Below, piece after piece: positions 9,652-44,046 of a stretch of 64,000 bases of DNA. The notes under the pieces were generated by a model. That model did not search any database and was not told the origin of the DNA. It was given only the letters and a program-made list of their open reading frames with translations. The stretch spans positions 3,968,001 through 4,032,000 of the forward strand of contig NC_135261.1 in assembly GCF_964204865.1 (NCBI RefSeq), written 5' to 3'. The DNA is from Styela clava (lineage: Eukaryota; Chordata; Ascidiacea; Stolidobranchia; Styelidae). Each line of letters opens with the position of its first letter. Positions within the stretch are counted from its first letter, which is position 1. The translations under genes were made by a program, and so were the position numbers.

Positions 9652-12317
9652 TTAATAAGGCTCAATTGTTTCGTAATGCCTAGTCGTGTCGGCATTTTCA
9701 TAGCCAACCACTTCCTGGTTCTTTTCCGGGTCCATCTCTTCAGCCTGGCTTTTTTTGACTTCTTGTCGTAGATTGTTTGCAGCTTTTAATCTACGAAACA
9801 ATATTAACAAATATTAAATAAATATTGAATAATTCAAATTAGACAACTATTTATTCTAATATTGGTTACAAATTTGAAGCTTTTAGTTTTTACCCATCAA
9901 AATAATAAAAAACAAGATGATTTTTTAAATCGAATATACATGGGACAATATTTACTGACTTGAACTAAACTAAATTCAATTTCAAGATTTATTTTTAAGC
10001 CAGGTACATTTGCTAAAATGTATATTCCAAAAAATACCCGTTGGCGAAAAATGATCGTCTCTGTAAACTATTCATAAAATAAATTTGCCTTACGTATGTT
10101 CTGCTTGAAGCTGCATTGCAGTTATTTATATGAAATTATAAAGCAAAATAAGAATAAAATGGAAAAGTCACCTTATTAAGCAGATTATCGCAGTGGCTGC
10201 GACAACTCCCAATATTATTGTTGAAGCAAGAAGAATACGAATTTGTGTAGTTTCGTCTATTGCTCCAGTTGCTGAAATTAAAAAAAGACGTATAAATATA
10301 AAACGCGACTGCCCAACGGTTGATACAATAGAATTTTGTTGACATCGCTGATAACACATCTCGGATAAAAATCACATGCCCCACTACCCCATGGGGTAAT
10401 AAGTTGGGTGGGAAATGCCGAACCGGAACGATTACGGCTCTTTTTAATAAGCGCAGCTCCATACATATCGTGAGATGACTGTCTTGATCAGAGCAAAAAG
10501 CTTGAAAAAGAACTGTATTAAAAAAATTATTTACCAATATGAAGAATTTGTAGAAAAGAAGTAGTGGAAGTAGTCGTAGGAATCACAATAGAGAGAAGAG
10601 AGTGGCAATCAGTATAAAAAAAGATAGAGACAGATGGAAAAGGGAGAGAACGAGTATAATAAGAGAATTAGAGAAAGAAGAAATGCGCGAGATAAAAATG
10701 AGAGAGAAAGAGAAGACAGCGATAGAAACGAGAAAAGAGAGTAAAGTAGATAAGAAGAAGAAGGGAATAAGAGTGGTGAAAAGGAGAGGCTCAAATATAT
10801 TTCTGTAACATTTCTTCTGATTGAAGTTGGGCTTTCTCAGTGACTTACAGCAATAAATTTGTGTTAGTGTTCATCAAGACTCTTAAATCACTTGGAATAA
10901 TTGTCTTCAACCTTCCTATAGCATCCTTTCAATATACGCATACGAATACAATATCACAAAAGCATTGAAGATGAGTATCTAGTCCCGCAGAAACGAAATT
11001 AGAGGGTAGTGAAATGATAAAAATATCAGTAAGAGAGAGAGAAAAAACAAAATACAGCAATATGAACGTAGAATATTAAAATGATGAAATTCTTACTTGT
11101 TTCAATTTCTGGACATTCCACATATTCGTATCCCATTTTAAATCTTTTGTTTTTCATGTATTTATTGAAGCCGTTTGCTACGAAATTTATCGTTAAATTT
11201 TCCTTCAAGGTTGCATTCATATTTAAGTTCCCTAAGACAATGCAGTTTTCGTAGATTTGTGACGTTTGAATTCGGCAGTGTTCCCTCTCCAGTATCACGC
11301 AGCTCCCATCTTCCATAAGTGCTAAATTTTGTCCTAATAATAGATTTACGTATTTAATAATCTCAGCAGATTATAGATTTTATTGCACAAATTATCTATC
11401 AATCTGAATTAAAAAATCAATGCTGATTTCACGAATGCTGTGACTGATCTCGATGCTTTTTCGGCAATATAGATCAAACCTGCGTTGCGATGTCATTGTT
11501 TTGATTCCTTTTTTTTATTACGTTTGGGTGCACAGTGATCAAAAGTTGGTCAATACTTTGAATTTTCTTACAACGACATCAATTTGCTACTTCAAGAAAA
11601 ACACAATGAACTATAACTATTGGCAGAATGAAATATGGCTTCATGTTCAAATTTAGTGTGCTTGAAAAACATGTTATAAAAAGAGTCAAACTGGATTTTG
11701 GATATCTGTATCAGTTATGTTTCAGGTTTTTGAGTAATCTGCTCGAAGTCTTTTGAATACAAACTCGAATGCTTAAATTTTGCTAAATCATAACATTGAA
11801 ACATTTGAATTTTAAGTTCCTTTCAAACCCCGAATTGTCAAGTCTCCAATGACAAGCTTTCTTCTGTATGGCATGAAAATAAAAGTCAAATCCATCTTCA
11901 AAAAGTTGAGCATTAGTGTAGAATTATGAGAATAAGTTGAGTGTGGTAGAATCCATGTTTTGCGATCCCCATAGGTAAAGTTACCGGGATATCCCGAAGA
12001 AGTTATGTTTCCGTGTCTTGAAGATAAAATTTCAACGTTGGCTTGCTCTAATATTACCTCATCAACAACCAGTGCTGAAATAAAAGTTAGGTCAATATAA
12101 TGAAACTGGTAAACAATATAATTATGTGGCCACTTTATTCGAGGTTGGGCGTCACACCGACTATCTTGTAATAGTATTATTTGGAATGCAGTATATAAAT
12201 TGTAAAAAGTCGAAGATATCCAGAAATACGTACAGTCAAGAGAACACGATGAAAATATTCTGAAAACTTACCGATGGTAAAGGATAAGAAGACAAACTTC
12301 AGAAAGGTATTCATCAT
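9652..12317 (-). CDS. CUB-domain single-pass membrane receptor, short-tail copy (255 aa, five exons)
   Basis: Minus-strand exons are 12317-12272, 12074-11829, 11333-11097, 10271-10172 and 9790-9652, all GT-AG with matching phases. The protein has a signal peptide (starts MMNTFLKFVFLSFTI) and one CUB-like ectodomain at about 20-172. Its core has NITSSGYPGNF and, later, ENLTINFVANGF, but lacks the first cysteine pair of classical CUB domains; four cysteines lie in the second half and there are several N-glycosylation sites. A membrane segment follows at about 189-209 (ILLASTIILGVVAATAII), then a 46-residue tail. The tail has three tyrosines, in YENA (240), YETI (249) and the last residue (255). 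It aligns with the first part of the tail of the 39949-44046 gene and then meets a stop. Head-to-head with the gene at 20640. Probably a cell-surface receptor; ligand unknown. Confidence 0.85.
10560..10795. repeat. Purine-rich tract in receptor intron 3 (arm 1)
   Basis: A run of GAGA and GAAA words. On the receptor's sense strand it is a polypyrimidine tract. Arm 2 has the matching tract at 42240-42470 in the same intron, so it predates the duplication. The open frames across it are low-complexity artefacts. Confidence 0.7.
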
Positions 12318-12473
12318 CAAAGCTAGGTTACATCAAGCATATGGTGCCAAAGATTGACAGTTAAGTAATAAAGCAACCCATCTCAAAAGTAAACTAAATT
12401 TGACTGTTAAATGTAAAAATAAGTTAGAAATACAATTAGTCAAATATTGCAAAACTTCAATTTAAAACAACTT

Positions 12474-12540
12474 CAAAATGTCTGAGCAGGTCAAAGCTAC
12501 AAATTCCGATCACTGCTTTGTCGCAATTATGTGCAAATGA
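12474..12540 (-). promoter_or_regulatory. Conserved noncoding block upstream of the CUB receptor (arm 1)
   Basis: Read on the minus strand, the block starts CATTTGCACATAATTG, includes GTGATCGGAATTTGTAGC and ends near GACATTTTG. Its counterpart at 39728-39794 differs at about six of 67 positions by my count, as close as the coding exons, while the sequence around it is far more diverged. It sits about 155-225 bases upstream of the ATG and could be a promoter-proximal regulatory module. Confidence 0.55.
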
Positions 12541-13677
12541 GCAATGAATATTGCCTACTGTTCCCAAAGTTTTACCAAGTATACCAACATTGTTAAATGA
12601 AGTATATTAGATAAAATATCACACAGTTAAAATAATATGTAATAAAAATTTAATATGCATAAGATGAGTACTGATGCAACTTCTGGTACAATACACAAGG
12701 AGCTATATTTGGCTGGAATTAATATAAGACGACTTCGTTTGTCCTGCTCTGCACTGTGCTTGCGACATATGGATATGACAAATGCCTGTACCTAATACAC
12801 GGCATTGCTTACTGCTAATAAAACACGTTAATTTACTGTGAGCCTATATGTCTACGACTTCCTTGTTTAAATGCTTATTAGACGGCTCTAGGTCTAGTGT
12901 TTTCCTAACTTTATTATACCCCGCATTACGTCAAGGGAAACATTGATGGGGTTGGGTATGTGCGAAGGCTTATAATAAAAACATTTTTACATAACTCGGT
13001 TTCCTTGTTCAGAGATTGGTCCCAACTTCATGTATGTCGTTTTCAAATATTGTAATTTTTCAAAATTTATATTTTATTTATACGAGGCCTATTCACCCCG
13101 TTTATTCCGAAAAAGTGTGGAAAGAGTCATTGATGTCTACAATAGGAACTATCATTTATTAAAAGGGAGCTAGGATTTGAATCAGAGGTAGCTAATGAGA
13201 GAACTATTACGTTTAACCACTGGGTCATCGGACCTACATTTATAGGTATAGGAACATTGATAATGTCACAATAATCATATCACTGCTAGACCAACTATGT
13301 TCCACATATTCACTTAGATTTAATTCCATTATGAATTTTAGTATCTATATTAACTTACTAAAATTGTTGCTTTTAGCATGTGTATGTGTGTGCAGTGTAA
13401 AATGTGTGTGATGAAGGACAGAACGCCAGTTCAATAATGGCTCTTCCTCATATGACTATGCTCAAGATGTGCAACAATTAATCAGGAACATTGCTTACAA
13501 AAAGCATGTCACGAATGCATTACTAAAAAGAAGTTGCCCACTCAAAACACGCTGACGCCGATATCGACTGCAGTCATACCAATCGAAATAGTATTAAAAT
13601 ATGTGATGTGAAAGGCATAAATTGATTAGATTATAGGAGTATTAGTGGGGACAATCAGTAACAAACCTATGAATAGA
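12541..13677. other. Shared upstream region between the divergent genes, arm 1 part
   Basis: No gene. It matches 38690-39720 of arm 2 in reverse in recognisable islands, for example CCGCATTACGTCAA near 12922 and GGAGTATTAGTGGGGACAAT near 13635. A tRNA-like stretch on the minus strand (A-box-like TGGTTAAACGT at 13217..13207, B-box-like GATTCAAATCC at 13183..13173) is probably a SINE remnant. Confidence 0.5.
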
Positions 13678-16600
13678 CCTTATTCATTAAAAACCCATCC
13701 TACGCGCAAAAAGAAAAGTGATGTAAAAAAAACAATTTTAACATTAGCTCTTATGGGGATTGTGATCACCAGAGCAGAAATTTGCATTTTTTGTAATTTT
13801 CTAGATTTCTTTCATTGTATACGTGAGCAGTTTTGAAGATAGAATATTTTTTACATCTTTTTTGATATTTTTATCATGATAGACATGGTCAAGATTTTTG
13901 ATAATCGTTCATTGAAATTTTAATGAGCGTTGTGTTTCCGATGACGTCATTCTCACTAGACCATGAGATTCTGCCAACGCGCCGTGCTCTGTGGGATATG
14001 CGCTCCAACTGCTTGTGATAACAGAATACTGGAATACCGCTACCGGGACCACAACTGGCGTTCAACGAAAGACCTATTTTGGTTTTTATCGGATGTTATA
14101 TATTTCATGAATTCCATGTAACTATGTACATTTCTGGTACACCTTTCAAAATCCAATGGCCTAACTCAGTTCATATGTTGACACCATGTACCTATCTCAA
14201 AATTGGTGATGTTGAGGGCTGTATTTAGACTATGAGAGGCCCCTTCATATTTTTGAGCTCATAATTTCTCTCTAAACAACACTACATGTCATTGCTTAAA
14301 ATTTAAAAATATGAGTGCATTAAATTTTTCATTCTTCCCAAAAGAATAAAAATTTACTTGAGACAGTTTTGCTTTCAATTTCTTTGATCAAACAACTGCT
14401 TCAGCCATACTTTAACACAGAAACTTCCAGCAGAATGCGCATAATAATAATTTCCTTCATTATGATGCAAACGACGCAATAATGGCTGTTTACAATGTGG
14501 TTGAAACCAGTTGTGTACAGAATTTTCTACTCTGAAAAGCTTGATATATATATACTTGTCGTAGGGTTTAAACTTGTCATGTTTTCAAAAGAATTACAAA
14601 ATTCGAAACCGAATTTCGAGGTTCTAGGTTTCAACCTGCCTAGCCTGTTGGTAAACCCAGCCCTGGTGATGGTCCCAACTGCAAATTTCTGGCCCTAATC
14701 ACTCAGCAGATTGAAATAAATGGTTTTCAACATTTATTAGCAAAGATAGATATTTTAATTAAAACTCTCTTCCAGCGGCTAAACTCATATGAGAGAATAT
14801 TCATACTTAATTTTGTGATCGGCAAACTACTGTTAATATCGCTCTTAGCTCTTTGTTGACGTTATGCCCTGATATGAGAGAAGTACGGTGGCCCATCGTT
14901 GTCACGCGTAAAATTTAAAAATAAATGAAAACATAAAATGAAAAAGCGAAAATAAAAAAATAGTTGTGAAAAAACATAAAACTATTTGAAAAAAAGAAAT
15001 AAAAAAAAAATTGAAATTAAAAAAAAAATTAAAAAAAAAAAAAAAAAAAAAAAAATTAAATAAAAAATTAAAAAAAAAAAAAAAAAGATTAAAAAAAAAA
15101 AAATTAATAAAAAATTTGGATAAAAATAAAATAAAAAGGTTGACAACGATGGTCCGCCTCGTGGCCCATCGTTGTCACGCGTTTTTATTTTTGAAAAATC
15201 TGATGCTGCTTGGGACCAACGTTGTCAGGCTTAATCCTACACGCACAAATGTGTTTCCTGGGTTTCTAACTCACTACTGATTTTTATGAGCAATATCCAA
15301 TAAATTCAACATGAAAATGTTCTATAAATTCTCCATGCTACAAGTTCAACCACAAGCAATATATTTATAATAATGATAATATAATAATGAATATAGAATT
15401 GGATACGAAAATTTGTTTTTACGTGTAGAAGGTAATTTAATTGGAAAATGCTGCTTAACTGCTCAGTTGTCTAGACACTCGTGCGATGCCGGTACGGTAC
15501 CGTCTGACCGTACCGGTACCCATGCAATCACTCGTGAAAGACTGGGAGATACGGATAGTCTCGTAGAATATAGTCTACTGAAACACTCTCTGCGCCTGCC
15601 CCATACCGTACAGCCGTAACGTACCGATCCAGACAAATGATAAATCGACCGTGCTCAACCATTTATTTCAATTCATACCTTGACTCACTATATTCTACTA
15701 GGATAGGAGATTTTTTGTATGTAAAAAAACGTAAAATTAATGGCAATTTTAACGCGTAAATGCGCGTATGGAATTGTTTACGTCGTTCTACGCGCATTTC
15801 CGTCAAAAACATTTAATTTTTTTGCATTGGGGGTGGTCTGTGCAGTAATAATAAGAGCTGTGACGTCATCAAAATCGGTAATTTTAGCGTTGAACTTGAT
15901 ACAACTGTAATACAATTGGGAAATTCAGAGTAATAACCATTTACGCTATAATAGTCTTTCGGTGCTGTTGTGTTAGGAAAAACTTGACGAAAACGTTGAA
16001 GAAAAAATTAATTAATTAGTAATTAATTATTAACCCCCTACTGTACACAGAATTTCTCAAGGTCCAATTTTTGTTTAGAAATTTTTTAGATTTTTTTTGC
16101 ACAAAAATTTTCTTTTTCGGAGGAGTGTGTTTTAAAGATATATTGCTGAATAGAACTCTAGCACACGCTTTTAAAAAGCCATGAGTGAAGCTTTAGGGCT
16201 TAATGGTTGACAAAAAAAAACAATTTTAAAAATACCCATGTCAAATAAAATGGTCCACAGCTGGAAGAGAGACAATGATAATATAAATATATGTCCCATT
16301 ATTACTGCATTGTGAGAAGGCTTTCCACACTATCAAGCCTATAAGGTTTTAGCGTCTTCCAATGTCTCAAATGGAAACTTCAGTCTTCATTTCACATATT
16401 CTTTTCATTAATGCCATTAGCATTTGAAGCTTGACTGATTCCAATGTACCTTTTCCATTGTTGTTTAATGTAATATCCTAAACGTGACTTCAAATTTTTT
16501 TCTGACTTCAATCATCACATGTTTGAATACCCGAGCTGACTTACTCCTACTGATTTGTTATTAATTTACAATTTTTTTTATAAATTAAATGTCGTACTCG

Positions 16601-17069
16601 CTAAGTGTCCACTAAGTGAAAATCTACAAAAAAGCAGTGGTTTAATAATGGACTACATTTTTAACCGAATCCAAAAATATTCCGTAACTTATAGTACCGG
16701 TACCGTACCCAAAGCGACATTAGAGCCACATTTGCAGCGCATATCCCACTCCCACAGAGCACGGCGCGTTGGCAGAATCTCATGGTCTAGTGAGAATGAC
16801 GTCATCGGAAACACCACGCTCATTAAAATTTCAATGAACGATTATCAAAAATCTTGACCATGTTTATCATGATAAAAATTTCAGAAAAGGATGTGGAAAA
16901 TATTCTGTCTTCAAAACTGCTCACGTATACAATGAAAGATATCTAGAAAATTACAAAAAATGCAAATTTCTGCTCTGGTGATCACAATCCCCATAAGAGC
17001 TAATGTTAAAATTGTTTTTTTTACATCACTTTTCTTTTTGCGCGTAGGATGGGTTTTTAATGAATAAGG
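13678..17069. mobile_element. 3.4-kb element with about 330-bp terminal inverted repeats, arm 1 only
   Basis: 13678-14004 is repeated in reverse at 16737-17069 with few differences: CCTTATTCATTAAAAACCCA opens the left end, and AGAGCACGGCGC marks the inner limit of the right one. Between them are A-rich low-complexity sequence (15000-15120), GGTACC palindromes and no transposase-like frame. The frames inside the terminal repeats (13645-13836 and 16911-17159) are shadows of this repeat. Arm 2 has no such element at the matching point near 38700, so that is an empty site. I could not define a target duplication. A non-autonomous foldback or long-inverted-repeat element fits. Confidence 0.8.
14883..15158. 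mobile_element. Nested short inverted-repeat element with A-rich core
   Basis: GGCCCATCGTTGTCAC near 14890 faces TTGACAACGATGGTCC near 15140. Between them lies an A-rich core with long A runs. The outer motif GTGGCCCATCGTTGTCACGC then recurs directly at about 15161. It looks like a small MITE nested in the larger element. Confidence 0.45.
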
Positions 17070-17269
17070 GGTATTATTGCAACTTTCTGATAATATGCAA
17101 TAGTAATCATGTATTATCCTTCCATATCGTTTCTTATCGCACATATACTTTAAGTGCACATACGGTTTCAGTGCGCCAATTAAAGTAATAAAAAAACAAT
17201 GAATTTTGTGTTAATTGTGTTAAAACGCAAAGCGCGACGACGCTGAAACAAACAAATTTAATTCTTCAA

Positions 17270-20200
17270 ATATTCTCCCGTAGTCCATTATTTGACGATT
17301 GACATCCAGAACACAAAAATTTTGTAAAAGCAATGAAACATTTATTGGAGATTCACGAATCTTATTGAAATAACATTAACTTCATTGTTTCTGAATCCAT
17401 ATGAGCTCATATGAGTATTCTTTGTACAGTTACAGATTGGAATGAATAATTATGAAACTATGAAATTATGAAGCTGGGTCAGTTTTTGATGTCATTGTAA
17501 TTTGAATTTTAACATTTTCCCATCGACACAAATTTGCAGATAATCTGTGCAGTAATTTCTTGTTTACCAATGAGTTCGCTATATTTACAAGTACAGATCA
17601 CCGTATAAATGCTCCTATTCAGCTCTAATATAGGCAATAATATTAAAAAAAAAGTATATATAATGAATTTGAACGCATATAAAATCTACATTGTGCTCGA
17701 CATGTCGTGAGGTACTTGCCTAAGATGACCGTGTTGTGAGCATTTACTTCATTTCATTTACTTCAAAATCAGTTCTGGATTTACACGACGTCGCCAAATG
17801 ATTAATAATATGACGTTGCAAATTTTACGCGGTTTCGAAAATATGTTTTATTACACTAGTTCGCCGGTTTCGATGTTATCAATGTGGACAGCTGCAGAGG
17901 TTTTGAATTGTGTGAAGGTTCGTAACTTACCTTTTTTACATCACATCATGTGTACTGATAAATATTGCATTAGGCTGCTTCATAATTTTAATCCCAATAT
18001 GGCCTTACCTAACCATAAACATTTTTGTTTCGTTTAGAAATCTGAAAAGCACTTGTATATGTCCTACTTCCTGCACATTCTACTTAATTTATTACTCTCT
18101 GGTCAAGGGTATGAAATAGATTTTAAACTAGCGACCTGAATTAGGTCGTGGTGTTAATCACATATTCACATAACTAATCACATAACTCGACGAACAACGA
18201 CTTTATTTGTATTTTTGGTTAGGTCACGGATAAAAGATCTTAGTGAAAGTGAAATAGTGAAATAAAAGTGAAATAAAAATGGGAAAAGACAACGCCGGCA
18301 AAAATAGCAATAAAGTAATATAAAGAAGTAAATATGAACTTGGATTACGTCAATGCCAACTGAAAAGTAGGGAGTCATAAATTAATATTTCGGTAAACAT
18401 TGCTTTCGAAAACAACAAGGTATGCTGGATAAACTACACTGCGGTTGAATGTAATTGTAATGAATTTAAAAAATGATTAAGTGTTATACAATTATGGCTA
18501 ATCACAATTATGTCAAGAAAATTTCCCGCGTGATTATTAATTGAAAGAATAACCTTGAAACATTTCTCACCAGAGTATGACGTCATTTACCCCTGCTGCA
18601 TATCGACGGGCATCTACAATGAAATTTTAATCGCTCGTAATGTATATATACGCTCGTAATGACCAAAAGTTATAGAGTTATCAGGCACATTTAGAACATA
18701 GTTTACTGTTCTCAGAGATGAATCAAATAACGAAAGGAAAATATATGAAAGCGAATATAATACTGAGAACACTAGTTTCGAAAACAACTAGATCTGCTAG
18801 ATAAACTACACTGCGTTCAGGAGTAATTGCAGAAAAGATAAAGAAAGATTCGGTGTTATCGGGTTCTTATGACTAAGCACAATTTCGCCAAGAAAATTCC
18901 CCGCGTGATTTTTAATTGAACGAATGACCTTGAAACGAATGATCACTTCTCAACAGGTTATGACGTCATTTACCTTGCGGTCATATCGACCGACATCTTT
19001 ATATCCCTAACACGAACATTGTTGTGAAAGCACTAAAACATTTTTTGGAAATTCACGAAGGATATTGAAAGAATAGTTTTCAGCGCCAATTTAGGCAATA
19101 ACATATATAAATATAATTAATATAATAATAAATAAAATCTATTTTGTGCTCTGCACGTCGTAAGGTTGTCGTAACTTGTATCATATGGTCGTTTTGTGAG
19201 CATTTTTTCTCATGGCCACATCCGCTTGAACATATGTTTTTTAAGAATGAGAGCGAACTCTTCGCATTTACTATACTGCGGGATAAAAATAGACGGACGA
19301 CTGGGCCGAAGGCGACATCAACCTAGATTAGAAATTTGTTATTAGTCGAAAAAATGACGTATTGTACACGCATTACGTAAGCTGTGGAAATCAGTTCTGG
19401 ATTTGCACGACGTCACCAAATGGCCGTGGTCCTACACGACCATAAACGTACGTGTTTTGTATCGAAATCTGGGAAACACCTGTATATATTATACTTCCAC
19501 TTTCTGCTTCCACACTCTAGCCGATTTATTACACACTGGTCAAGAATGTGGGTAGGAAATAGATTTTAAACCAGCGATGCCAACTTGGCCATGGTCCTAC
19601 ATGACCATAAACGCACGTGTTTTTCACAGAAATCTGGAAAGCACCTGTATATATTATACTTCCACTTTCTACTTCCACACTCTACCCGATTTATTATACA
19701 CTAGCAAAGAATGTGGGTATGAAATAGATTTTAAACCAGCGATTCTAATTTGGCCGTGGTGCTAATACGTTTGACCAAATAAATACTTTGAATTTTTGGT
19801 GGTACGACTTAGTGGTCATTGACTAACGAACTTATGTTTCATACCATGTCCAGGTTCATACCTACCCCATCACCAGGGTGAAATAAAAATTGAAAAATGC
19901 AACGCCGGCAAATATTGTTTCAAAGTAATATAAAGAGGTAAATATGAACTTGAACAACGTTAATGCCAACTGAAAAGTAGGGAGTCATAAATCATTATTT
20001 CGGTGAATATTGGTTTCGAAAACAATAAGGTATGCTGGATAAACTACACTGCGGTTGATTGTAACTGAAATCAATTTAAAAAAGGATTATCTGTTATACA
20101 ATTATTTCTAATCACGATTATGTCAAGAAAATTCCCCGCGTGATTTTTAATAGTAAAAATGACCTTGAAACATGTGATCATTTCTCAACAGACTGTGACG

Positions 20201-20340
20201 CCATTTACCCCTGCGGTCATATCCACAATGAAATTTTAATCGCTAGAAATGTATATATAATGACCAAAAGTTATAGAGTTATCAGGTAGATTTAGAACAA
20301 TATTTACTGAAAATTGGATGAAAGCGAATATAAGACTAAG
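17270..20340. repeat. Tandemly duplicated intergenic segment, arm 1
   Basis: Blocks recur in the same orientation. CTGGATAAACTACACTGCGG with the following GTCAAGAAAATTTCCCGCGTG occurs near 18425 and 20035, and a diverged version near 18795. GAAATTCACGAA and GTTCTGGATTT.CACGACGTC recur near 17345/19050 and 17770/19395. Arm 2 carries a single version in reverse (37000-38250). No coding exon is included. Confidence 0.7.
19421..19750. repeat. Two tandem 165-bp units
   Basis: Units are 19421-19585 and 19586-19750. Each begins TGGCC.TGGTCCTACA and includes CACCTGTATATATTATACTT and a GAAATAGATTTTAAACCAGC end. A single diverged unit is seen at 17998-18150, and in reverse at about 37600-37735 in arm 2, so the doubling is specific to arm 1. 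Confidence 0.75.
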
Positions 20341-20525
20341 ATCTATAGATGGTATCACTTTTATGTTTGCAACAGTATACTATATTTTTATAAATGAATA
20401 GCAGAAATTTACCTTAATGGAACTGCAAACTATCAGCGCTTCAAGAGTGTAAAAATATCGGTCAATGTCCCTATTCGAGCAATTTTTAAAAAGATCTTGC
20501 GCTATTTATTTTCTAGGTAAATGAT

Positions 20526-20533
20526 TATAAATA
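20526..20533 (+). promoter_or_regulatory. TATA box of the six-repeat secreted-protein gene (arm 1)
   Basis: TATAAATA followed by ATATT lies about 110 bases upstream of the ATG. The same TATAAATAATATT word stands upstream of the arm 2 gene at 36664..36657. A TTTTCAG/AAAATATA acceptor-like site near 20599 is also kept in arm 2 and may be a 5' UTR or leader trans-splice acceptor. Confidence 0.5.
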
Positions 20534-20639
20534 ATATTTTATGCAACAAATCGTCGTTTTTTTTTGTAAAATTACATTTTACTCCTTTTTTGTTTTCAGA
20601 AAATATAACCGTTTTCATTTAATAAATACTTACGCCAAG

Positions 20640-31780: not shown

Positions 31781-31820
31781 TAAAGTCAAATAACATTGAA
31801 ACATTTTAAGTGTTACATGT

Positions 31821-32009: not shown

Positions 32010-35000
32010 TCAAGCTAACTTCTGCGGCCTGTGGAAAAAAAAGAAATAACTTTTAATTGATAAGTTTAAAAAAAAAAAAAAACTTAATGCTTGAGCCAAC
32101 TTACACAATTTCGTACACTTGATTAGCCCAAGGTCCTCCTTTACCATCATTTCTGCATTTTTGAGAAGGTCCAATTCGCCTGTATGTATTTTCAGCGTCA
32201 ATTGAGGCTGAACAATATCCGCCATCTTGAAGAGCAAAATATCTAAATCCCCTGGAACGAGCATAACGAGCGCATTTCCCTAAAGCATCTTCTCTTTTCT
32301 TATAATCAGGTTGACTCATGAATTCTGGTCCATTGCTCTCGACTGTTGGAATAGTACGGAAAGCATCATCTGCCCAACATCCTCGACTTTTGATGTAAAC
32401 TGTAAAGTTAGACAAAAGAATAGTTACAGCATTGATAAAACAACTAGCACACTGAGGAAGAAGGCTCTAGTTATGGAAACTAGGTAATATGAAGTCAAAT
32501 TTTGTTATCATGACGGTTTATTACGGCTTTTACCTTCTTAACTTTTAAATCTTAAATTATTACTGAATATACTTGTCTGATGGGAGTACATATCTTGCTT
32601 ACAATTGCAAATTTGCATTTAACATTACACTTACAATTAAGTTTGCAGTGCAGTGCTAGATTTTATGAAACCAAACTTACAGTCCATTGCATCTGAAATC
32701 TTGTAGACTGACATCGCCCATGAACCGCCCTTTCCTCTTCCACAGTTATCCGCTCGGCCGAACCTCGCGTACGTCGAACCAGCGTTTGCTGAACTCTGAC
32801 AATATCCTCCATTTTGGATGGCAAATACAGTGTGACCAAAACTAGCCGAAACTCTGGCGCATTTTCGTACAGAATCGGATCTTTTTTGATACTCTCCATT
32901 CAGTAATGGGTTCATAGTTTCAATGGTGGAAATAGCTCTCGCTGATGTATCTCTAAAACATCCGAGCCCGCTGAAATTTGCTGTAAAATTCAACAAATGA
33001 TTTTTTTTGTGTCAACTCCACGGAATCAATGTTTTTTAACATCACAATACTTACGATCCCATATTGTGTTGATTTCATAAACTTCATTTGCCCAGTTCCC
33101 ACCTTTGCCATTTGAGCATTTATTAGAAAGTCCATATTTTCTATAAGTGTTTCGAGCGTTTACTCCAGTCCAACATTGGCCCCCATTCTGTACTCCGATA
33201 ATGTTATATCCGCGCGCCATAGCTGCTTGAGCACATCTGAAACAAATTATTGCACATGAGACACTAAGTTACATCTACATCGTCCATGATGTTATTATAA
33301 ACTTTCAGTATCAATTTACCTTCTAATAGCATCCTTTCTTTTCTGGTATTCACCGATCAAAATAGAATTGGTTCCTTCTAAACCAACTGGAATAGCACGA
33401 TTTTCTTTGTCAGTCCAGCAACCCAGATTGTTCAGGTAATATTCTGTCCAAAGAAATATTTCTGGTATTTTTGATGCAACTTTTTAAATTTTAATAACGA
33501 AAACTTTAGACCACTAAATGAGTCTTGTTAACATCTGAGTATGATATCCAGCTATGAGACGCTGATTTGGCCATATTCGCATGTTGTGTTTTGACTGAAA
33601 GATTTAGCATTCACTCTTTTTAATCGAATTCGTAATATTCATATATTGGTAAAGTACATACCTTCATGTCTAGGAAGTCTTGGAAATCCGGTTTCTGCAA
33701 AAATAAATCATTTTGAAAATTATTTTTCTGTTATAAGAAATGACGTAGATCATGCCATAAGGCAAAGCAAATCTACATTTATAAAAAACAATGCTAAAGC
33801 TAAAATATGCGAATAAAATTGTAATGCATCGGTGCTGGTTCGGTCATGCCAGAGAGCACCGAATTTGATGAAAAGATTGTTGGATAAGAAATACGGAGTT
33901 GGTCTAGAAATATGATGTTGCTCTTCATACAAAATAAAACAACAAATTTCTGACAGAAATATTGGTTCTCAAAGAATCAGTAAAATTTGAAAATAATAGT
34001 ATTGGTTTAGCGAATTTTTCCAAATTTATGTAATGTAAAGCTGAGAAACATTGGGCATAACAACTCCAAGAATTATTGTTATCGTTATCGAAACTATCCC
34101 TATGCTCACTCCGTGTTCAATCATACAATAAAAAGGCCAATAAAAAAACGGTGCAAAGAAGTGACTGGAATCATCTAGCGCCCATCAACAGACAGCCTAA
34201 ACCTAAAAAAACGGTTATTTATGGTTGGATTAAATAGTATATCTTACCGAGCTTTTTAATATCTATTTTGAAAACTTCATTTGCCCATGATCCACCTTTC
34301 GAATTCGATTTACAATTCGTTGATGCTCCATACTTTGCATAATGAGTTCCTGCCATGCAAGAACCGCCATTTTGAATTCCAACGATGAGATGTCCCAATC
34401 CCGAAGCATATCTTACGCATTGTTCAATGGCTTGAGGTCTTTTCTGGTATTCACCGCCTAATATTTCAGGCCTTTCCAAGAAAGGTAGCGATCGACTTTC
34501 TTTGTCGGCGAAACAGCCGAGACGTTCAAGTGTGACTGAAAAATTAAAAGAAAATAATTAGGATTTTTATACAATAATATGTAATTAATATATAATTTTA
34601 TAATAGGCTACTGTGTAATATCAGCGTTAGTACTGTGCATACCGCTAGATAAATTATATTTAGCAGTAGCAGACACATCCAGTACAGTACGGAATAAGGC
34701 AGGAGATGCAATCAGTAACTTATAAGAAATTTGAAAATGAAACTTCGATGCTTGCCATTTGGTTATTATATTTTGGATGTGGATTGAGTTTGGAAAGCGC
34801 CAATTAAATTATGAACAAGTTATTCGTGAATATTGTATACTGTGTTAGAATAGGATTTTTAATTCGAATTGATCAAAAGACTACTGAAGTTATTAGCGCC
34901 ATAAAACGACAACAACAACAACAACGAGTTGCCACAATTATTTTACTTTGGCAATGAAATTAAGAAGTATTTGCTTAAATAACTCCATCAATTAAGTATC

Positions 35001-36482
35001 TTACTTTTTTCAACAGAAGTAATCTCATAAACGGCATTTGCCCAAGGACCTCCCTTTCCGTGATCCTGACAGTCTTGCGAGTAACCGTATTTATTGTGAG
35101 TGGAAGACGCAGAAGACGAGGTAGCACACCATCCCCCGTTTTGCAGCGCGAAAACACTGTTTCCAAGAGAAGCCGCGATTCTCGCACATTTTCCTATTGC
35201 ATCCTGTCGATGTTGATAATTATCATGAAGATCAACATAACGTTTCTCAACAGTAGCAATCGCTCTTTTCCCAGTGTCTTTGAAGCAGCCAACCGGCCTA
35301 TATTGCACTGCAAAAAAAATTGTTCAAGTCAGTTATTACAAACTAAGTTTATCACATATATCTCTCATTAGGATAGATAGGAACTCTACAGTCACCCATC
35401 ACTATGTATAAATCTCCGATTCCGTTTTTTTCCCAATATCTAATGGATCATTAGATAGTGATGCACACAACTAATAATCTAGCGTTTGTACAGATTGAAT
35501 ATTTTATAATGTGTGTGAGCATACGTGGTAAATGAATACAGATATCAAATTACAAGCAAAACCTCCTCGATTGGGGAACCCTGGTTTAAACAAAAAAGGG
35601 GATTTTTAACAAAAATGCGTTCAACTAACCTTTCAAAACAGTATCAATTTCGTAAACTTGATTGGCCCATGGTCCTCCTTTTCCGTCGCTTTTACATTTA
35701 TCTGAAGGTCCATACTTTGTGTAAGTTTTGAAAGCAGCTGATCCTGAAGCACACCATCCTCCATCTTGGATAGCAAATACAGAATATCCTAAAATTTCAG
35801 CTGCGTGCGCGCATTGCTGAATAGCATTCACACGTGATTTATAAGAACCGTGTAGTTTTGTTTCAATGCTGGGAATCGCTCTGGCACCTTTGTCTTGCCA
35901 ACAGCCAAGATCTCGAAGTACATCTAAAATATAAAATAAGGGAAAATTGAATTTCTGTTTAATTAACAAAGAATATATCTTTAAAATTGTATTGATACCA
36001 CTTTTAATAAATTCAAAAGCACTGAAAATAAATAGCTTTAATGGATTTTTACAGTACAGTGCATTTCTATCAGAAAATTTTCACTTTGCAATTATCAATC
36101 AACTAATGATTTCGACAAATTTTGCGAAAATCGTTACGTTACGAAACATAGGAACCGGTCGCACAAATTAAGCTTACGTACAATTTAAATTTAAAAATTA
36201 AATTTCTATCGCGCAATATATTTATTAATATAAATTTTGATAAATTTTAAATACACGGAAAACAAATTTTTTATTCATTTTCATGTGTTTCGTGTGTAAT
36301 TTCTACTACTAGTGTTATTATTCCATACTGATATTCATGTAACGTTGCTAAATTCATTCAATTTTAAAAATATAAAAGAGGAACATAGACAAATTTCACT
36401 TACAATCTTTGAAGGAGCTAACTTGTGAAATGAAGAATAAGTAATACAGTAGAAGAGTAACGCATGCCGTCATCGATTTCAT
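32010..36482 (-). CDS. Secreted protein with six GC-[WF] ... GGWC ... GKGGPWANQVYEI domains, arm 2 copy (638 aa, ten exons)
   Basis: Minus-strand exons are 36482-36404, 35923-35630, 35307-35005, 34535-34248, 33694-33662, 33443-33320, 33236-33055, 32980-32681, 32399-32105 and 32028-32010. Every exon has the same length and phase as in the gene at 20640-25216, except exon 9, which is 18 bases shorter and lacks most of an EPIMGNEKAY stretch in repeat 6. The signal peptide begins MKSMTACVTLLLYY. All four cysteines are kept in all six repeats and there is no premature stop, so this copy looks functional. In repeat 3 it has GGSWANEVFKI where arm 1 has GGTLANEVFRI. In repeat 1 I counted about six amino-acid differences from arm 1 in some 95 residues. 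Likely secreted; function unknown. Confidence 0.88.
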
Positions 36483-36656
36483 CGTCGAGTAAGTATTTAA
36501 TAATTGTAAACGCCTATATTTTCTGAAAGTGAAGAGGTGATTAGAAAAATGTGTAAAAATACACTGAAATAATAATATTTTTGATTAAAACCCATGGGTA
36601 ATGGTCCGTGATATTGCATATTCGTGTATAAAGCAACAAGTTATTGTATGGAATAT

Positions 36657-36664
36657 TATTTATA
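36657..36664 (-). promoter_or_regulatory. TATA box of the six-repeat gene (arm 2)
   Basis: TATAAATA followed by ATATT on the minus strand, about 175 bases upstream of the ATG at 36482. It is the same word as upstream of the arm 1 gene; an acceptor-like TTTCAG/AAAATATA lies between it and the ATG in both arms. Confidence 0.45.
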
Positions 36665-39600
36665 CACAAAATAAAAAGTGCACAATATTTAAAAAAAAAA
36701 ACAGCTTGAATTGGAAAATTGACCGATATTGTTGTAACGCTATGCGCACAGTATTGAATATTTTATTTTACACTCTTCACGCGCTGATAGTCCGCAGTTC
36801 TGTTTTAAGATAGGTCTCTGCTATTTACCTAAAAAAATATAAGATACAGAAATTAAATTCATTCATAGATCTTAGTATAATCTTTACATTCATTCAATTC
36901 CCTTTTGTCATTTTATACGTTTCTGACAATAGTAAATATTGTTTGCCTATCTGAAATCTGTTTAATAACTCTCATTCTGGTTGTCATTATATATACATTT
37001 CGAGCGATTAAAATTTTATTGTAGATGCCGTCCGATATTACCGCAAGGTAAATGACGTCATAGTCTGTTGAGAAGTGATCAGTCGTTTCAAGGTCAATCG
37101 ATCAATCAAAAATGAGGCGGGGAATTTACGTGACGTAATAGTGCTTAGTCAAAACCGGATAACACCTAATCTTTTACTATTTTGCAACTACTGCTAAATT
37201 TAGTGTAGTTTATCTATCAGACCTAGTTGTTTTCGAAACCAATATTCACTAAAAATTGAATTATGGCCGCCCTACTTTTTAGTCGGTTTTAACGTAATCC
37301 AAGTTTATATTTATTTCTCTGTATTATATTGTATCAATCTGTGCCCAGTAATATCTCACGGTGGCGTGGTAGAAATGCTATGATACCTAAGTTCTTAAGT
37401 CAGTGACCTAACTACTTATTCTTACCAACGAAAACACAAATAATATCTTTTTCCTTTAAGTTAATATGATCAGTGATCACTGAATTGACATGGTTTAGAA
37501 TAGGGGTGTGCAACCGTCCCAAATGCAGCTCACAAAGGCCCGCGGTTTAACTCAGTTCTTTGTGTCTGGCCATCCTGTATTAAAGAATGAACACCCCTGG
37601 TTTAAAATCTATTTCATACCCACAGTCTTGACCAGAGAGTAATAAATTGAGTATAATGTGCAGGGAGTAGGATATAGAACGGTGCTTTCCAGATTTCTAT
37701 ACGAATCATATACGTTTATGGTTATGTAATACCATATTGGGATCGAAAGTATGAAACAGCAATTTCAATATTTATGCGGACACATGATGTGGTGTTTATA
37801 AAAGTAAATCACGAATCTTCACACAATTCAATAGGTTTGCAGATATCAACATTGATAACATCGAAACCGGTGAACGAAAATAATAAAAACATATTTTCGA
37901 AACCGCATAAAATTTACAACGTCATATTATTAATCATAAAGTGACGTCGTGTAAATCAAGAAGTGATTTTCATACCTTGCGTAATGCGTGCGTCATTATT
38001 TCGCCTAATAACAGAAATATAATCTTAGTTTGATGTCGCCTTCGGCCCAGTCGTTCGACTATTTTTATCCCGCAATATAGTTAATGAGAAGAGTTCGCTC
38101 TTAATCTCAAAACATATGTTAAAGAGGATGTGGACATAAAAAGAAATGCTCAAGACATAGTCATCTGATACAAGTACCTTACGACATGTCAAGCACAAAG
38201 GAGATTCTATATATTCTTATGTTCATTATACTTTATTTATATATTATTTCCTAAATTAGCGCTGGGTGAAACTTAAAATTACTATACAGTTTATCTACAA
38301 ATTTATGTCGATGAGAAAAAAATAAAAATATAACAAAATTTAACACTGACTCAGCTTAATAATCTCATAGTTTCATAATTATTCATTTAAATCTGTAACT
38401 GTACGAGAAAAAATGAACCCATATGGACTCACAAACAATAAAGTTATTATTATTTCAATATCATTCGTGAATTTTAAACAAATGTATTAGTGCTTTTACT
38501 AAATATTTGTGTTCGGGAATGGTCACATAATGGACAATAGGAGAATATTTGAAGATTGAACTTTGTTTGTTTAAGCGTTAATGAGGTGTTGAAATTGGCA
38601 CACTAAAACCGTATGTGCACTTAAGTATGTGTAGTGCATAAAAACGAAGGATAATATATGTATGATTACTATATCATATTTTCTGATGGTTGCTAAACTC
38701 ATTACTAATTGTCCCCACTAATACTCCTTAAATCCAATCAATATATGGCCTTCACATCACATATTTTATTTACTATTTCGCTTGGTATGACTACAGTCGT
38801 TATCAGCCAGCGTGTTTGGAGTGGGCAACCTTATTTTTGGTAATACATTCATGACACACTGTTTGTAGGCAATGCTACTGTTTAACCATTGTTCAGCTTA
38901 GTCGTATCATATGAGTTTACTGGGCAGACATATTACAAACTACAAATATCATAGTTGTCATACACCACACACTATTTATACCGACACTAAGGCAAATAAT
39001 ATTTTTGACAATATCATAGTTCGCACCAAACGCTTTACTTTACTCCATTATACACGAATTTAATTTTTTATTTTTGACTTGTATTGAAATACATATGTAT
39101 ATAACCGAAATTGTAGAATTCTTTGCGCTTAAGTCAATTTTTTTTTCAGTTTTGTTCTCCCTCTGATTTGAATGTTCAATCTCAAAAAAATAAAGCAAGC
39201 TATGCAAAGCAATGTTTTCATTACAAGCCTTAGTACATAACCACCGCTGCCAGAGTTTCCGTTGACGTAATGCGGGGTATAATGATGTTAGGAAAACACT
39301 AGAGACGTATTATAATAGGTAAACAAGTTAGTTAGGAAAACACTTAGAGACGTCGAATATTAATTTAACAAAAGAATTCGTGGGTATATAAGCTCACAGT
39401 AAATTATCGTGTTCAATTTGCAGTAAGCAATGCCATATAATGAATACATGCATCTGCCATTTCGATATGTCGCAACGTGTCTGGAAAATTCGCCGTAGGA
39501 AATGTCGCAATCGTAGAGCAGATGAGCAAAATAGTCGTCTTATTTTAAATCGAGCCGAATATAGCATGCTGTGTATTTTACCAAAAGTTGTATCAGTACT

Positions 39601-39727
39601 CATTCTATTCCCTATAAATATTTGTTACCTATTTCTTTTAACGTTGGGATATTGTATCCAATGAATTTCATTTAGCAGTGTTGTTATATCAGAAAAACTC
39701 AGGGAGCAGCCATAAATTTTTTTTACG
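36665..39727. other. Shared upstream region between the divergent genes, arm 2
   Basis: No gene. It aligns in reverse with single versions of the arm 1 segments: 37010-37240 with the GACGTCATTTACC blocks, 37600-37735 with the 165-bp unit, and 38000-38250 with 19150-19330. The point near 38700 is the empty site for the 3.4-kb arm 1 element. Confidence 0.55.
37501..37599. mobile_element. 99-bp hAT-type MITE, arm 2 only
   Basis: Ends TAGGGGTGTGCAAC and GAACACCCCTG. Flanks GTTTAGAA (37493-37500) and GTTTAAAA (37600-37607) agree at 7 of 8 bases. The matching arm 1 sequence near 18130 runs through without it. Confidence 0.7.
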
Positions 39728-39794
39728 CATTTGCATATAATTGTGACAAAACGGTGATCGGAATTTGTAGCTTTGACCTGATCTGACATTTTGA
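39728..39794 (+). promoter_or_regulatory. Conserved noncoding block upstream of the CUB receptor (arm 2)
   Basis: Counterpart of 12540..12474. It starts CATTTGCATATAATTG, includes GTGATCGGAATTTGTAGC, and ends about 155 bases before the ATG. The TTTGCATA word resembles a POU octamer half, which is suggestive only. Confidence 0.55.
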
Positions 39795-39948
39795 ATCTAT
39801 TACAACTTGAAGGTTCTCAATATTTGCCTAAATTAATTTTAACCTAATTTTATATTTCACAGTAAAATTTAGTTTACTCCTAGGATGGGTTGCTTCATTA
39901 CTTAACTGTCAATCTTTGACAACATATGCTTGATGTGACCTAGCTTTG

Positions 39949-42900
39949 ATGATGAATAACTTTCAGAAGTTTGTCTACTTATCCTTTACCATCGGTAAGT
40001 TTTTAGATTATTCTCATCGTGTTCTCTAGACTTTACGTATTTCTGGATATCTCCGACTTTTTATAATTTATAATGTATTCCAAATAATACTATTATGAGA
40101 TAGTTGGCGTGGCAATAAGACGGTCAACAGCCCAACTTTGAATGAAGTGGACACATACTCATTAAATACCCATTTCATTATATTGAACTAACTTTCATTT
40201 CAGCACTGGTTGTTTATGAAGTCATATTAGAGCAAGTCAACGTTGAAATTTTAATTTCACGACATGGAAACATAACTTCTCCGGGATATCCCGGTAACTT
40301 CACGGGTAACAATTCCGAAACATGGATTCTACCACACCCAATTTATTCCCATAATTCCTCATTGGTGCTTCGCTTTTTGGAGATGGATATGATTTTTATT
40401 TTTCACAGAAGAAAGTTTGTCCTGGGAGACTTGACAATTCAAGGTTTGAAACTGAAGTTAAATTTTTATTGTTTTAATTTAGCAAAATTTAAGCGTTCGA
40501 GTTTTTATTCAAATGACTTCGAACAGATTACTCTTTAAAATAAAAATTTAAATATAAACGCTACCAATATCACTGATTCAGTTTTGCTCTTTTTTATAGA
40601 GTTTCTCCCAGCACACAGATTTAGAACATGAAGTTGGCCTACATATAATTTTGTTAATAGTTATCGTTTGTTATGTTTTTGTTGAAGGAGCAAGTTGATG
40701 TTGTCTTAAGAAAATTTAAAGTATTTGACCAATTCTTGAATTTTTCATCAGTTAATTGAATTCCTCCATGATATTCATTTACACAATAGTCACACAATAT
40801 TTTCATCATGCTAAACTGAGGTCACTGTTCACCCAAGAATCATAAAAAAAATTCAAATTACATCTCAACACAAGTTTGATCTATATTGCTCAACGAACAT
40901 CCAATGTCCATAGCCACGGCATTGGTAAAATAAACATAGGCTTTTTAATTTAGACCAGTGGTTCTCAAACGGGGGAGCACGCCCCATTCCCATTTATTTT
41001 GGATATTTACGTTCCACCCACATATTTTCCACGTGTTTTTTCAAATTAACATTCTTTTGCCTTAGTACATGTTATTTGCAGTTTATTCTTAGTTATTGTT
41101 GAGGTTGGGCGCGAGACTTGACAAATTCTAAAGGGGGCGCGGCTTAAAAAGTTTGAGAACCACTGAATTAGATTAATAGATGATTTGTGCAATGAAACAT
41201 ATGAGTAATCTACTGAGATTATTTAGGACTTGAATCTATTATTAGGGCAAAATTTAGCACTTATGGAAAGTGGAAGCTGCGTGATACTTGAGAAGGAACA
41301 CTGCCGAATTCAAACGTCACAAATCTACGAAAACTGCATTGTTTTAGGCAACTTGAACAGGTATGCAACTTTGAAGGAAAATTTAACGATGAATTTCGTA
41401 GCAAACGGCTTCAATAAACACATGAAAGACAAAAGATTTAAAATGGGATACGAATATGTGGAATGTCCAGAAATTGAAACAAGTGAGTTTTTTATCAATA
41501 TGTATTGATATTCTAATTTGATATTGCTGCCTTTATAACAATTTTCTCTTCCATAAGTGATTTGAGAGTCCTCCTGCACACTTTTATATTCACACTGCAA
41601 CACAATTATATTCCTGTAACGTTTGGTCTGGCCAAGGTCAGGAGTTATGTCTGAGGAAGTCTGACCGTTGTCAGACGGAAGGTTACAAAAATATATTTGT
41701 GTAAGTGTGCAAGCAGAAGAAGGATGAGTATTTAGTTTCGCAGAAACCAAATATTTTGTCTTATATGTCTTTGTTCTCTCTCTCTCTATCTCTCTCTCTC
41801 TCTCTTCCTAATATTTTTATCAATTCTCTACTCGGCTAATTTTCTAGTTTCTTCGTCACTAACTACTTATCTCCAAAGCTTTGGTTACATTGGAATCGTA
41901 TGTGTATATTGAAAGAATGCTATAGGAAGTTTGAAGATAACTATCCTAAGTGATCCAAGAGTGTTCCTGCTCCCTAACACAAATTTATTTCTGTAATTCG
42001 CTAGGTCAGTCTGATTAGGGTCAGACGAAACGTTACAGAAATATAGGGTGTCCATAAGTTCTATTTTTTTAATTGCAAAGGAAATTTATCGATACCAAAC
42101 ACCGTTTCGGCCCTCACAGATGTATTTAATAAGATGAAAATACTTAAACAATTACTGAATAAATACAACAAACTTGGCTAAGATATACTGAGAACTGACT
42201 TTATAACAAAATTGAAATCGCTGAGGGACTTTGTGAACCTTCTGTATATTTGTGCCTTTCCTTTTCATCACTCTAATTTCCTTTATCTCCTTATCTATTT
42301 TCTCTTTCTCGTTTCAAGCCCCGTCTTTCTCTCTCTCACTCTCATTTTTATCTCGCTTCTTCTTTTCCTAATTCTCTCATTTCCCGTTCTCTCCCTTCTT
42401 TATTTTTCTTTAACTCTTTTTTATATTCATTGACGCGCTCTTCTCTCCTTCTCCTTTCAGTCAGAACAGGACAGTCAGTGCTAGTGCTATACCACGCTAT
42501 GTATGGCGCTACTGTTATTAGAAAGTAACGGAATCATTCTAGTTCGTAATTGTCGACACAATTTATTACACCCTGAGGTATAGGGGGAATGTGAATTTAA
42601 CCCTAGATGTTTTAACAGCGATGCAACAAAGTTCTAACGTATCAATAGCTGTTTCATTCGTCTTTTCTAATTTCAGCTACCGAAGCAAATAATACGCCTA
42701 CAGAAAAAAGTATTCTTCTTTCTTTGACAATAATTTTTGGAGTTGTGGCAGTCACTGCGATTATATGCTTAATAAGGTAATTCTTCTGCTCCGGTATCAT
42801 TATTATTTATACATACATTCCTCAAATCATTATACAGACTTTGAAGAGATTAATATAGATTGAAAACGTTTTCTGCTACAAATTGATTTACCAAAAGTTG

Positions 42901-44046
42901 TGTACGTTTCATTATATATATGTATATATACATGGTGTCCATTAAGGCCCTTCACAATTTTAATTTTGTTATGAAGTCAGTTCTCAATATATTCTAACCA
43001 GGTTAGGTGTATTTTATTCAATAATTATTTAAGTAATTCTACCTCATTTAATACATCCGTTAGGCTCAAAACAATATTTGGTATCGACAAAAATTCCTTT
43101 TGTATTTTTCAAAAATTAAGCCTTAAATTTAAGCCATCCTGGGCACTCTATAAATATGTTACAGACTACTTCTCACCTTAACTTTGATCCAACGTTTCAA
43201 AGTTATGTAGATCTAATTCAGTAACTAATGTTTTATGCATTTTTGTTTCTAAAAATATCAAAGTTTTTATGATTTCAATGAGTTAAACCCCAAAAGCCTA
43301 ATTTATAGCTACTAACAGAATAAGTATTTGTATTTATAAACTTCTCAATATTCATTCTGTAACCTTTAATAATTTATCACAGGTTAAAAGTTAAAAACAA
43401 TCTACACCAAGACGGCCAAAATTGCCAAACTGAAGAGATGAACCCGGAATTGCGCCCGGAAGTGTACGCCTATGAAAATATGGAGACAACAAGGCAATAT
43501 GAAGTAGTTGGACCTAAACAAGATGAACTAGAATCTAATTTAGCAACTAATGCAGCAGGTTACACAAAAATGAATCCGGATCTGTCAAAATTAGAAAACA
43601 ATGATCAACTGAAAAAGGATCAAAAAATCCTCCCAGTAGAAGAGTTTGATGCAACCGACATCGTAAAAAATAAAGCTGTTTCTAGTGTCACAAACCCGGA
43701 ACTAAATCCAGAAATTGTCAGCAAATGCATGAATGTAAACGAGGAGAAAAAAATCGATCCGGACGCAAACTCAGATGCAAGCGGAAACACAGACCTGCCA
43801 ATGTACAGTGTTGTTAATAAAAAGTCTGATACGGGAGTCACAAGCCCGGGGGGACTCGCCACAGAGGTACACGGTTTGGCTAAAGAACAGCACTATGATG
43901 ACTTAGGACAAATTAACGTCGCAATAGAAGAAGACGATCGCCATGTTGACGATATATACTCCGTCGCTACTGAGTTTCACCGTAACGATAACCATGGGAC
44001 TCAGGAGGTAATTGAGAATCCGTACGACTTTGCCGACAGACCTTAA
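39949..44046 (+). CDS. CUB-domain single-pass membrane receptor, long-tail copy (428 aa, five exons)
   Basis: Exons are 39949-39994, 40204-40443, 41246-41482, 42677-42776 and 43383-44046, all GT-AG and phase-consistent. The signal peptide begins MMNNFQKFVYLSFTI. The CUB-like ectodomain at about 20-170 has NITSPGYPGNF, ENLTMNFVANGF, four cysteines in its second half and several NxS/T sites. The membrane segment is at about 187-207 (ILLSLTIIFGVVAVTAII). The acidic, unstructured-looking tail of about 220 residues has eight tyrosines (236, 238, 247, 268, 349, 379, 400, 422). Y238 and Y268 are in YENM and YTKM, which fit the YxxM motif for PI3-kinase p85 SH2 domains; YEN also fits the YxN motif for Grb2. 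NPEL/NPDL motifs recur at about 228, 272 and 312. Probably a phosphotyrosine-signalling surface receptor; ligand unknown. Paired head-to-head with the gene at 32010. Confidence 0.87.
40956..41165. mobile_element. 210-bp hAT-type MITE in receptor intron 2, arm 2 only
   Basis: Ends CAGTGGTTCTCAAACGGGGG and AAAAAGTTTGAGAACCACTG are inverted repeats of the same type as the element at 6164. Flanks ATTTAGAC and AATTAGAT match at 6 of 8. It accounts for most of the size difference between intron 2 here (802 bases) and in arm 1 (495). Confidence 0.75.
41774..41807. repeat. (TC)n simple repeat
   Basis: Near-pure TC run in receptor intron 3. Confidence 0.85.
42045..42232 (+). mobile_element. Short dispersed element with GGGTGTCCAT end, copy 1
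   Basis: Begins AGGGTGTCCATAAGTTC. It aligns along its length, at roughly three bases in four, with the reverse complement of 42933-43149 (ATCGATACCAAA, GATGTATT.AAT, GAGAACTGACTT.ATAACAAAATT). It lies in intron 3 of the arm 2 receptor; the distal end seems truncated. Confidence 0.6.
42240..42470. repeat. Polypyrimidine tract in receptor intron 3 (arm 2)
   Basis: CT-rich tract matching, in reverse, the purine tract at 10560-10795 of arm 1. The frame through it is low complexity and not a gene. Confidence 0.7.
42933..43149 (-). mobile_element. Short dispersed element with GGTGTCCAT end, copy 2
   Basis: Starts GGTGTCCATTAAGG and ends CCTGGGCACTCT, giving a loose terminal inverted repeat. It is an inverted relative of 42045-42232, lies in intron 4 of the arm 2 receptor, and makes this intron longer than its arm 1 counterpart (606 against 381 bases). 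Confidence 0.6.

Follow-up and report, generated by a model that had tools for sequence, protein, structure and literature searches.

A 64,000-nucleotide stretch of the Styela clava genome (contig NC_135261.1, positions 3,968,001 to 4,032,000; C16:3968001-4032000), which we analysed as a whole and refer to as the window, contains a mirror-image duplication of a gene pair, one gene encoding a predicted single-span receptor and the other a predicted secreted protein with six WSC-like repeats. On balance, we favour the explanation that an inverted segmental duplication left a lectin-like gene in two copies and, next to them, two receptors that now form a long-tail/short-tail pair. One such event would have copied a divergently arranged pair, made up of genes for a type I membrane receptor, whose single CUB-like domain is very divergent, and for a secreted six-WSC-like protein; the receptor of the left arm (receptor L) would then have lost most of its tail, leaving that of the right arm (receptor R) as the long-tailed form. 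The tail asymmetry is the most interesting part of the locus, and it was absent from the sequence-only reading of the window that our analysis followed up.

When the window is compared with itself, 9598-25450 aligns in inverted orientation with 43991-31757; the roughly 20 blocks have 70-89% identity and keep mirror order except in a tandem-repeated left stretch at about 17.2-20.5 kb, which has multiple pairings. Local alignment extends the arms outwards (9647-9498 against 43942-44077; score 82, against a maximum of 45 in 200 shuffles) to the limits given in Table 1. This self-comparison, the dot-plot check of the mirror-image duplication claimed in the sequence-only reading, bears the claim out; the gap between the arms measures about 6.3 kb, where 6.4 kb had been given, and the limits named there, 9652 and 44046, are exactly the stop codons of the two receptors. 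Both arms are inverted inside one contig of 21.4 Mb. The left arm carries extra tandem copies (18268-18708 and 19878-20309) and a 3.4-kb insertion between its two genes, outside the exons, which the right arm lacks, the empty site lying near 38693-38702. The insertion has terminal inverted repeats and the look of a non-autonomous DNA transposon, though a clear target-site duplication was not seen. The spacer holds a fragment from the exon-5 region of the secreted-protein gene, which is 91% like the left arm and, over a shorter stretch, 81% like the right arm, and in which, by our reading, the donor has changed from gt to ga. This fragment is perhaps a leftover of the duplication event.

The four genes were spliced by hand from both arms and checked by script, and the models are predicted from DNA alone (Table 1). 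The receptor models have 5 exons each and the secreted-protein models 10 each, all four with GT-AG introns and none with an internal stop; when the right-arm coding sequences were mutated at random at about 19% of sites, the frame stayed open in 0 of 300 trials for each gene. Four open genes with intact splice sites, the head-to-head orientation of both pairs and the retention of both members in both copies, all read earlier from the sequence, hold up in these models. The two genes of an arm are transcribed divergently, and the arms are mirror images. Because the start codons of a pair lie 3.5 kb apart in the right arm and 8.3 kb apart in the left, a compact shared or bidirectional promoter is not indicated; the larger left distance is due to the 3.4-kb insertion and the local tandem repeats. 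By hydropathy, all four models begin with a hydrophobic N-terminus, and only the receptors have a membrane span in addition, one in each. Both receptors are accordingly laid out as a hydrophobic N-terminus, a CUB-like domain, a single membrane span and a cytoplasmic tail, of 45 residues in L and 220 in R, and both secreted proteins as a hydrophobic N-terminus followed by six WSC-like domains. For the secreted-protein gene, a possible additional exon following exon 5 (about 33594-33532) was considered and rejected, since by our reading its acceptor is absent in the left arm.

The two gene pairs have diverged to the same extent at silent sites. Between left and right, synonymous substitutions per site (dS) amount to 0.317 +/- 0.053 in the receptor against 0.299 +/- 0.031 in the secreted protein (z 0.29), which is what one joint duplication would be expected to produce. 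Non-synonymous divergence (dN) is 0.149 and 0.054, respectively, giving dN/dS ratios of 0.47 and 0.18; since non-synonymous change is lower than synonymous change in both, constraint has acted on both genes. Identity from arm to arm is 72-96% in exons and 51-88% in introns, with 9 of 13 introns below 75%. Among the WSC repeats, dS differs mildly (p 0.034) and dN strongly (p 1.8e-5), domain 5 having the highest non-synonymous divergence (dN/dS 0.51).

The two receptors are unequal, the left one having a truncated tail, and this corrects the earlier description, which stands as regards the mirrored arrangement. Their ectodomains are 82% identical and are joined to tails of very different length. 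Downstream of the stop of receptor L lies a decayed remnant of the lost tail end, in a frame that differs from that of the left tail; within it, a 50-bp block is 84% identical to the right arm (E 6e-9), and tblastn gives 49% identity over 35 residues (E 0.12). From the alignment, we estimate that about 420 bp are missing from the left tail region and that the loss shifts the frame. Most simply, the ancestral receptor had the long tail, and the left copy lost it. Non-synonymous change is higher in the tail residues that the two receptors share than in the ectodomain (p 1.7e-5), and so is dS, at 0.45 against 0.29. Of the 8 tyrosines in the tail of receptor R, 5 lie in Y-x-x-[LIVM] motifs, loose motifs that may be SH2 docking sites; given the composition of the tail, the excess has a binomial p of 0.011.

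The receptor had been described as a CUB membrane protein. The membrane span was found and the N-terminal half is CUB-like, whereas a Pfam match to CUB (PF00431) was not obtained for either receptor up to E 10, full-length or with the ectodomain alone. In the wider receptor family, 2 of 6 members gave a Pfam CUB match, at E 0.049 at best. A profile of the two ectodomains, compared by hhalign with eight CUB domains of solved structures, matched with 90% probability (P 1.6e-6) over 47 columns in the N-terminal half, and its score of 40.5 was reached by none of 300 column shuffles (maximum 24.6); the wider-family profile gave P 5.9e-7 over 55 columns. Both cysteines of the first CUB disulphide (C1-C2) are missing in the window receptors. 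All four aligned relatives have the second of these cysteines; as the rows were cut, two of the four show the first as well. A PDB sequence search with the full receptor returned a single, chance-level match (E 0.39). Our results point to a strongly diverged CUB-like receptor, with CUB support limited to the N-terminal half.

Relatives of the receptor are found elsewhere in the genome (376.6 Mb, 379 contigs), the weakest of which may be chance matches: 7 of 15 matches in the main search lay outside the window, and another query added two places and a profile search one (Table 1). Four relatives read at their loci have the same two ectodomain exons and common cysteines, and in relatives hydrophobic spans, possibly membrane exons, can be read by eye. 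One relative may, by our reading, have a tail with several tyrosines. These genes thus form a small family of single-CUB-like receptors, dispersed in the genome and variable in their tails. The genome also has clusters of canonical CUB domains, at C19:9355000-9389400, C3:8181000-8222700 and C3:15714000-15810000, the one on C19 in very long open frames.

For the secreted protein, hydropathy, repeat cysteines and Pfam all agree with the six-repeat secreted protein proposed earlier. The whole proteins match Pfam WSC (PF01822) far above its cut-off of 27.8 bits, the left at E 5.1e-25 (87.9 bits, 5 stretches) and the right at E 6e-29 (100.5 bits, 6 stretches); five single reading frames of the left arm scored 18.6-25.1 bits, under that cut-off. 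The only other Pfam signal in these proteins, MIX23, was barely above its cut-off in one of them, with no stretch passing. Each of the 12 repeats has four cysteines, and neither protein shows the eight cysteines and four disulphides of the Kremen1 type. The predicted structure of one repeat (exon 4 of secreted protein R) has a WSC fold, a PAN-like arrangement of a beta sheet and one helix, and appears to resemble yeast Wsc1 and human Kremen1. PDB sequence searches with the full secreted protein found nothing up to E 10, and a search with the WSC repeat profile found Kremen1 only at E of about 5, below unrelated chains. In a tree of the twelve repeats, each repeat pairs with its counterpart in the other arm, strongly supported for 4 of the 6 pairs; the six-repeat protein therefore predates the duplication. 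The secreted protein is probably a soluble, lectin-like carbohydrate binder.

That both members of the pair were retained twice had been taken to suggest that they work together. This step is weak: dS is equal, co-duplication explains the retention, and relatives of the receptor and of the WSC protein are unlinked in our lists. Since one event can have copied both genes, their joint retention needs only that each be useful. In the genome search with the secreted protein, in which 69 of 140 first-look candidates were scored and the counts are lower bounds, there were at least 95 WSC-like matches. At least 82 of these lie outside the window, 75 in an array at C4:21.458-21.516 Mb, 2 on C8, 3 on C14, 1 on C6 and 1 on C1. 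A search with PF01822, exon by exon, gave 7 matches, on C1, C3, C4 and C14; its reach was limited, because the WSC genes of the window were themselves missed. Among the matches listed (82 and 7 for WSC), the receptor relatives outside the window are all more than 1 Mb away from any WSC match. A WSC profile that recovers the window repeats in both arms, as does one built from the right arm only, found no match in 20-kb stretches around the two closest receptor relatives or in the 30 kb on either side of the window, and no further copy of the gene pair was found in those flanks. The evidence for a partnership is thin, and the genome lists do not support a conserved receptor-WSC pairing. In the open-licence literature, we found no account of a linked CUB/WSC gene pair and no paper combining allorecognition, the WSC domain and the CUB domain.

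If the pair were cognate, the CUB-like receptor would have the WSC protein as its ligand, opsonin or decoy, and selection would have kept a linked recognition module with an immune or allorecognition role, as in the linked gene pairs of ascidian loci. Tight linkage, divergent orientation and joint retention at equal dS fit this idea, as do two precedents, the fester/FcoR genes, which are linked in pairs and vary in copy number pair by pair (PMC12065747), and the tight packing of WSC and CUB within one Kremen1 chain (PMC5014086). However, a single duplication explains the joint retention, the relatives listed elsewhere are unlinked, and the secreted protein is conserved overall, with fast change limited to domain 5; the difference in dN between domains could itself reflect relaxation of the left copy. 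We therefore do not favour a partnership and an immune or allorecognition role, and regard them as rather unlikely. A more specific version, in which the six-WSC protein would dock in trans onto the CUB-like receptor as a "split Kremen" and the duplicated unit would comprise a signalling and a tail-less version, seems to us distinctly improbable. In heterozygous marine animals, haplotype misplacement is a general risk of assemblies, and this risk is all that speaks for one arm being the other haplotype placed as an inverted copy. A misplaced allele is unlikely because both arms are inverted within the same 21-Mb contig and are separated by a dS of about 0.3; this distance and the low intron identity exceed the difference that we would presumably expect between haplotypes, and the arms also differ structurally, by the 420-bp loss, the 3.4-kb insertion and the tandem copies. 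We consider such an artefact very improbable.

Equally doubtful as the cognate pair, in our estimate, is that the ancestral job has stayed with the right arm and the left one is simply heading to loss. The truncated tail and the transposon-like insertion would agree with such decay, yet the left models have intact splice sites and frames, and the insertion lies between genes and hit no exon. Several observations nevertheless weigh against the long-tail/short-tail explanation, and some bear on this very point. The left repeats depart from the WSC consensus columns 13 times against 5 on the right (p 0.10), 6 of the 13 falling in domain 5; over all columns the counts are 25 and 13 (p 0.07); and among 28 differences between the receptors, the left departs from the family pattern 12 times and the right 7 times (p 0.36). 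This excess is not significant, yet slow decay of the left arm would also fit it, and pairwise dN/dS is blind to constraint on receptor L after the loss of its tail. The tyrosine-motif excess in the tail of receptor R is modest and the motifs are loose. Another receptor relative ends in a tail of only about 50 residues; the family is therefore not uniformly long-tailed. The C-terminal half of the receptor was not aligned confidently to CUB, and an alignment forced end to end over the whole domain fell to 8.6% probability. In Foldseek, no match to the WSC model reached E 0.001 (best 1.7e-3). The genome lists are incomplete, and linked copies may exist elsewhere. Finally, that the short-tailed receptor acts as a decoy is something we infer.

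In the long-tail/short-tail explanation, receptors L and R would see the same or similar ligands; receptor R would signal through the tyrosine motifs of its long tail, and receptor L, with its tail mostly lost, would be a weak or competing form. The WSC protein would bind extracellular glycans independently of the receptor, and its linkage to it would probably be incidental to one ancestral neighbourhood. If this is true, the locus is a clean example of how a single duplication followed by a single tail deletion yields an invertebrate receptor pair, here with its ancestral neighbour gene still adjoining, and it would offer a direct test bed for how paired receptors begin. A wider lesson is that linkage and joint retention after segmental duplication are weak evidence for a receptor-ligand partnership.

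Beyond the gene pairs, the window contains a second, smaller inverted duplication (53430-54970 against 58168-56899; four blocks, 70-78% identity), near an exon for a Core-2/I-branching enzyme at 52055-52549; such events are therefore not unique here. A reading frame at 1687-2025 on the minus strand may resemble C-type-lectin-like ascidian proteins; Pfam gave no match to it up to E 0.1. Scans of the window with Rfam (gathering threshold) and for tRNAs gave no matches. Elsewhere in the genome, the WSC-like array (C4:21458000-21516000, with its 75 exon matches) apparently encodes one or several very long repeat proteins.

Table 1. Features of the duplicated locus (positions in the window) and relatives of the receptor elsewhere in the genome.
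Feature	Position	Strand	Detail	Source
Left arm of inverted duplication	9498..25450	.		blastn self-comparison and local alignment
Right arm, mirror of left arm	31757..44077	.		blastn self-comparison and local alignment
Spacer between arms	25451..31756	.		self-comparison
Exon-5-region fragment of secreted-protein gene, inside spacer	27720-27871			self-comparison
Insertion, left arm only	13672..17075	.	3.4 kb; terminal inverted repeats of about 347 bp, 95% alike	
Receptor L	9652..12317	-	exons 12317-12272, 12074-11829, 11333-11097, 10271-10172, 9790-9652; 255 aa	
Receptor R	39949..44046	+	exons 39949-39994, 40204-40443, 41246-41482, 42677-42776, 43383-44046; 428 aa	
Secreted protein L	20640..25216	+	exons 20640-20718, 21314-21607, 21855-22157, 22515-22802, 23475-23507, 23737-23860, 23944-24125, 24207-24506, 24807-25119, 25198-25216; 644 aa	
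Secreted protein R	32010..36482	-	exons 36482-36404, 35923-35630, 35307-35005, 34535-34248, 33694-33662, 33443-33320, 33236-33055, 32980-32681, 32399-32105, 32028-32010; 638 aa	
Decayed remnant of lost tail end of receptor L	9498..9647	-	homologous to 43942-44077	
Receptor relative	C6:18.517 Mb		E 1.7e-8	genome search
Receptor relative	C16:7.833 Mb		E 1.4e-5	genome search
Weaker receptor relatives	C6:18.550, C3:22.065, C19:7.129, C19:4.380 Mb		E 0.008 to 0.7	genome search
Receptor relative	C5:11.973 Mb		E 4e-4	genome search, another query
Receptor relative	C6:15.802 Mb		E 0.4; doubles as ordinary CUB match	genome search, another query
Receptor relative	C6:18.509 Mb			profile search

The arrangement recalls several known systems. 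Kremen1 and Kremen2 are Kringle-WSC-CUB-transmembrane receptors, and according to PMC5014086 the Kringle, WSC and CUB domains of Kremen1 form one rigid unit in one chain, with four disulphides where each repeat of the window protein has four cysteines. In the window, WSC and CUB-like domains are split over two neighbouring genes, a likeness to Kremen that is suggestive and no more: none of the four models combines Kringle, WSC and CUB in a single chain, the Pfam scan gave no Kringle, the soluble WSC protein carries six repeats, each with four cysteines, and the receptors are without the first CUB cysteine pair. Compared with Wsc1 and other WSC-domain proteins, the window protein is a secreted six-repeat animal protein with four cysteines in each repeat. 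A WSC domain is combined with inhibitory tyrosine motifs in an amphioxus leucine-rich-repeat receptor. For the ascidian s/v-Themis self-sterility genes, PMC7018956 describes linked genes for a sperm receptor and an egg-coat protein, transcribed in opposite directions and duplicated as a pair. Tight linkage of a receptor gene and a secreted-protein gene, opposite transcription and a duplicated pair are thus common to both loci; the Themis proteins are polycystin-1-like and fibrinogen-like with intron nesting, whereas those of the window are CUB-like and WSC proteins without nesting, Pfam giving WSC in the secreted proteins and nothing in the receptors. The linked fester/FcoR genes of Botryllus can, according to PMC12065747, carry Y-x-x-[ILV] tails, and they share with the window linked gene pairs in which one partner has tyrosine tail motifs. 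In fester/FcoR, as described there, both partners are Ig/sushi membrane proteins, whereas the window pairs a CUB-like receptor with a secreted WSC protein. The likeness to Kremen, Themis or fuhc is an analogy, and the window shares its linkage logic with Themis and fester/FcoR, and its protein families with neither.

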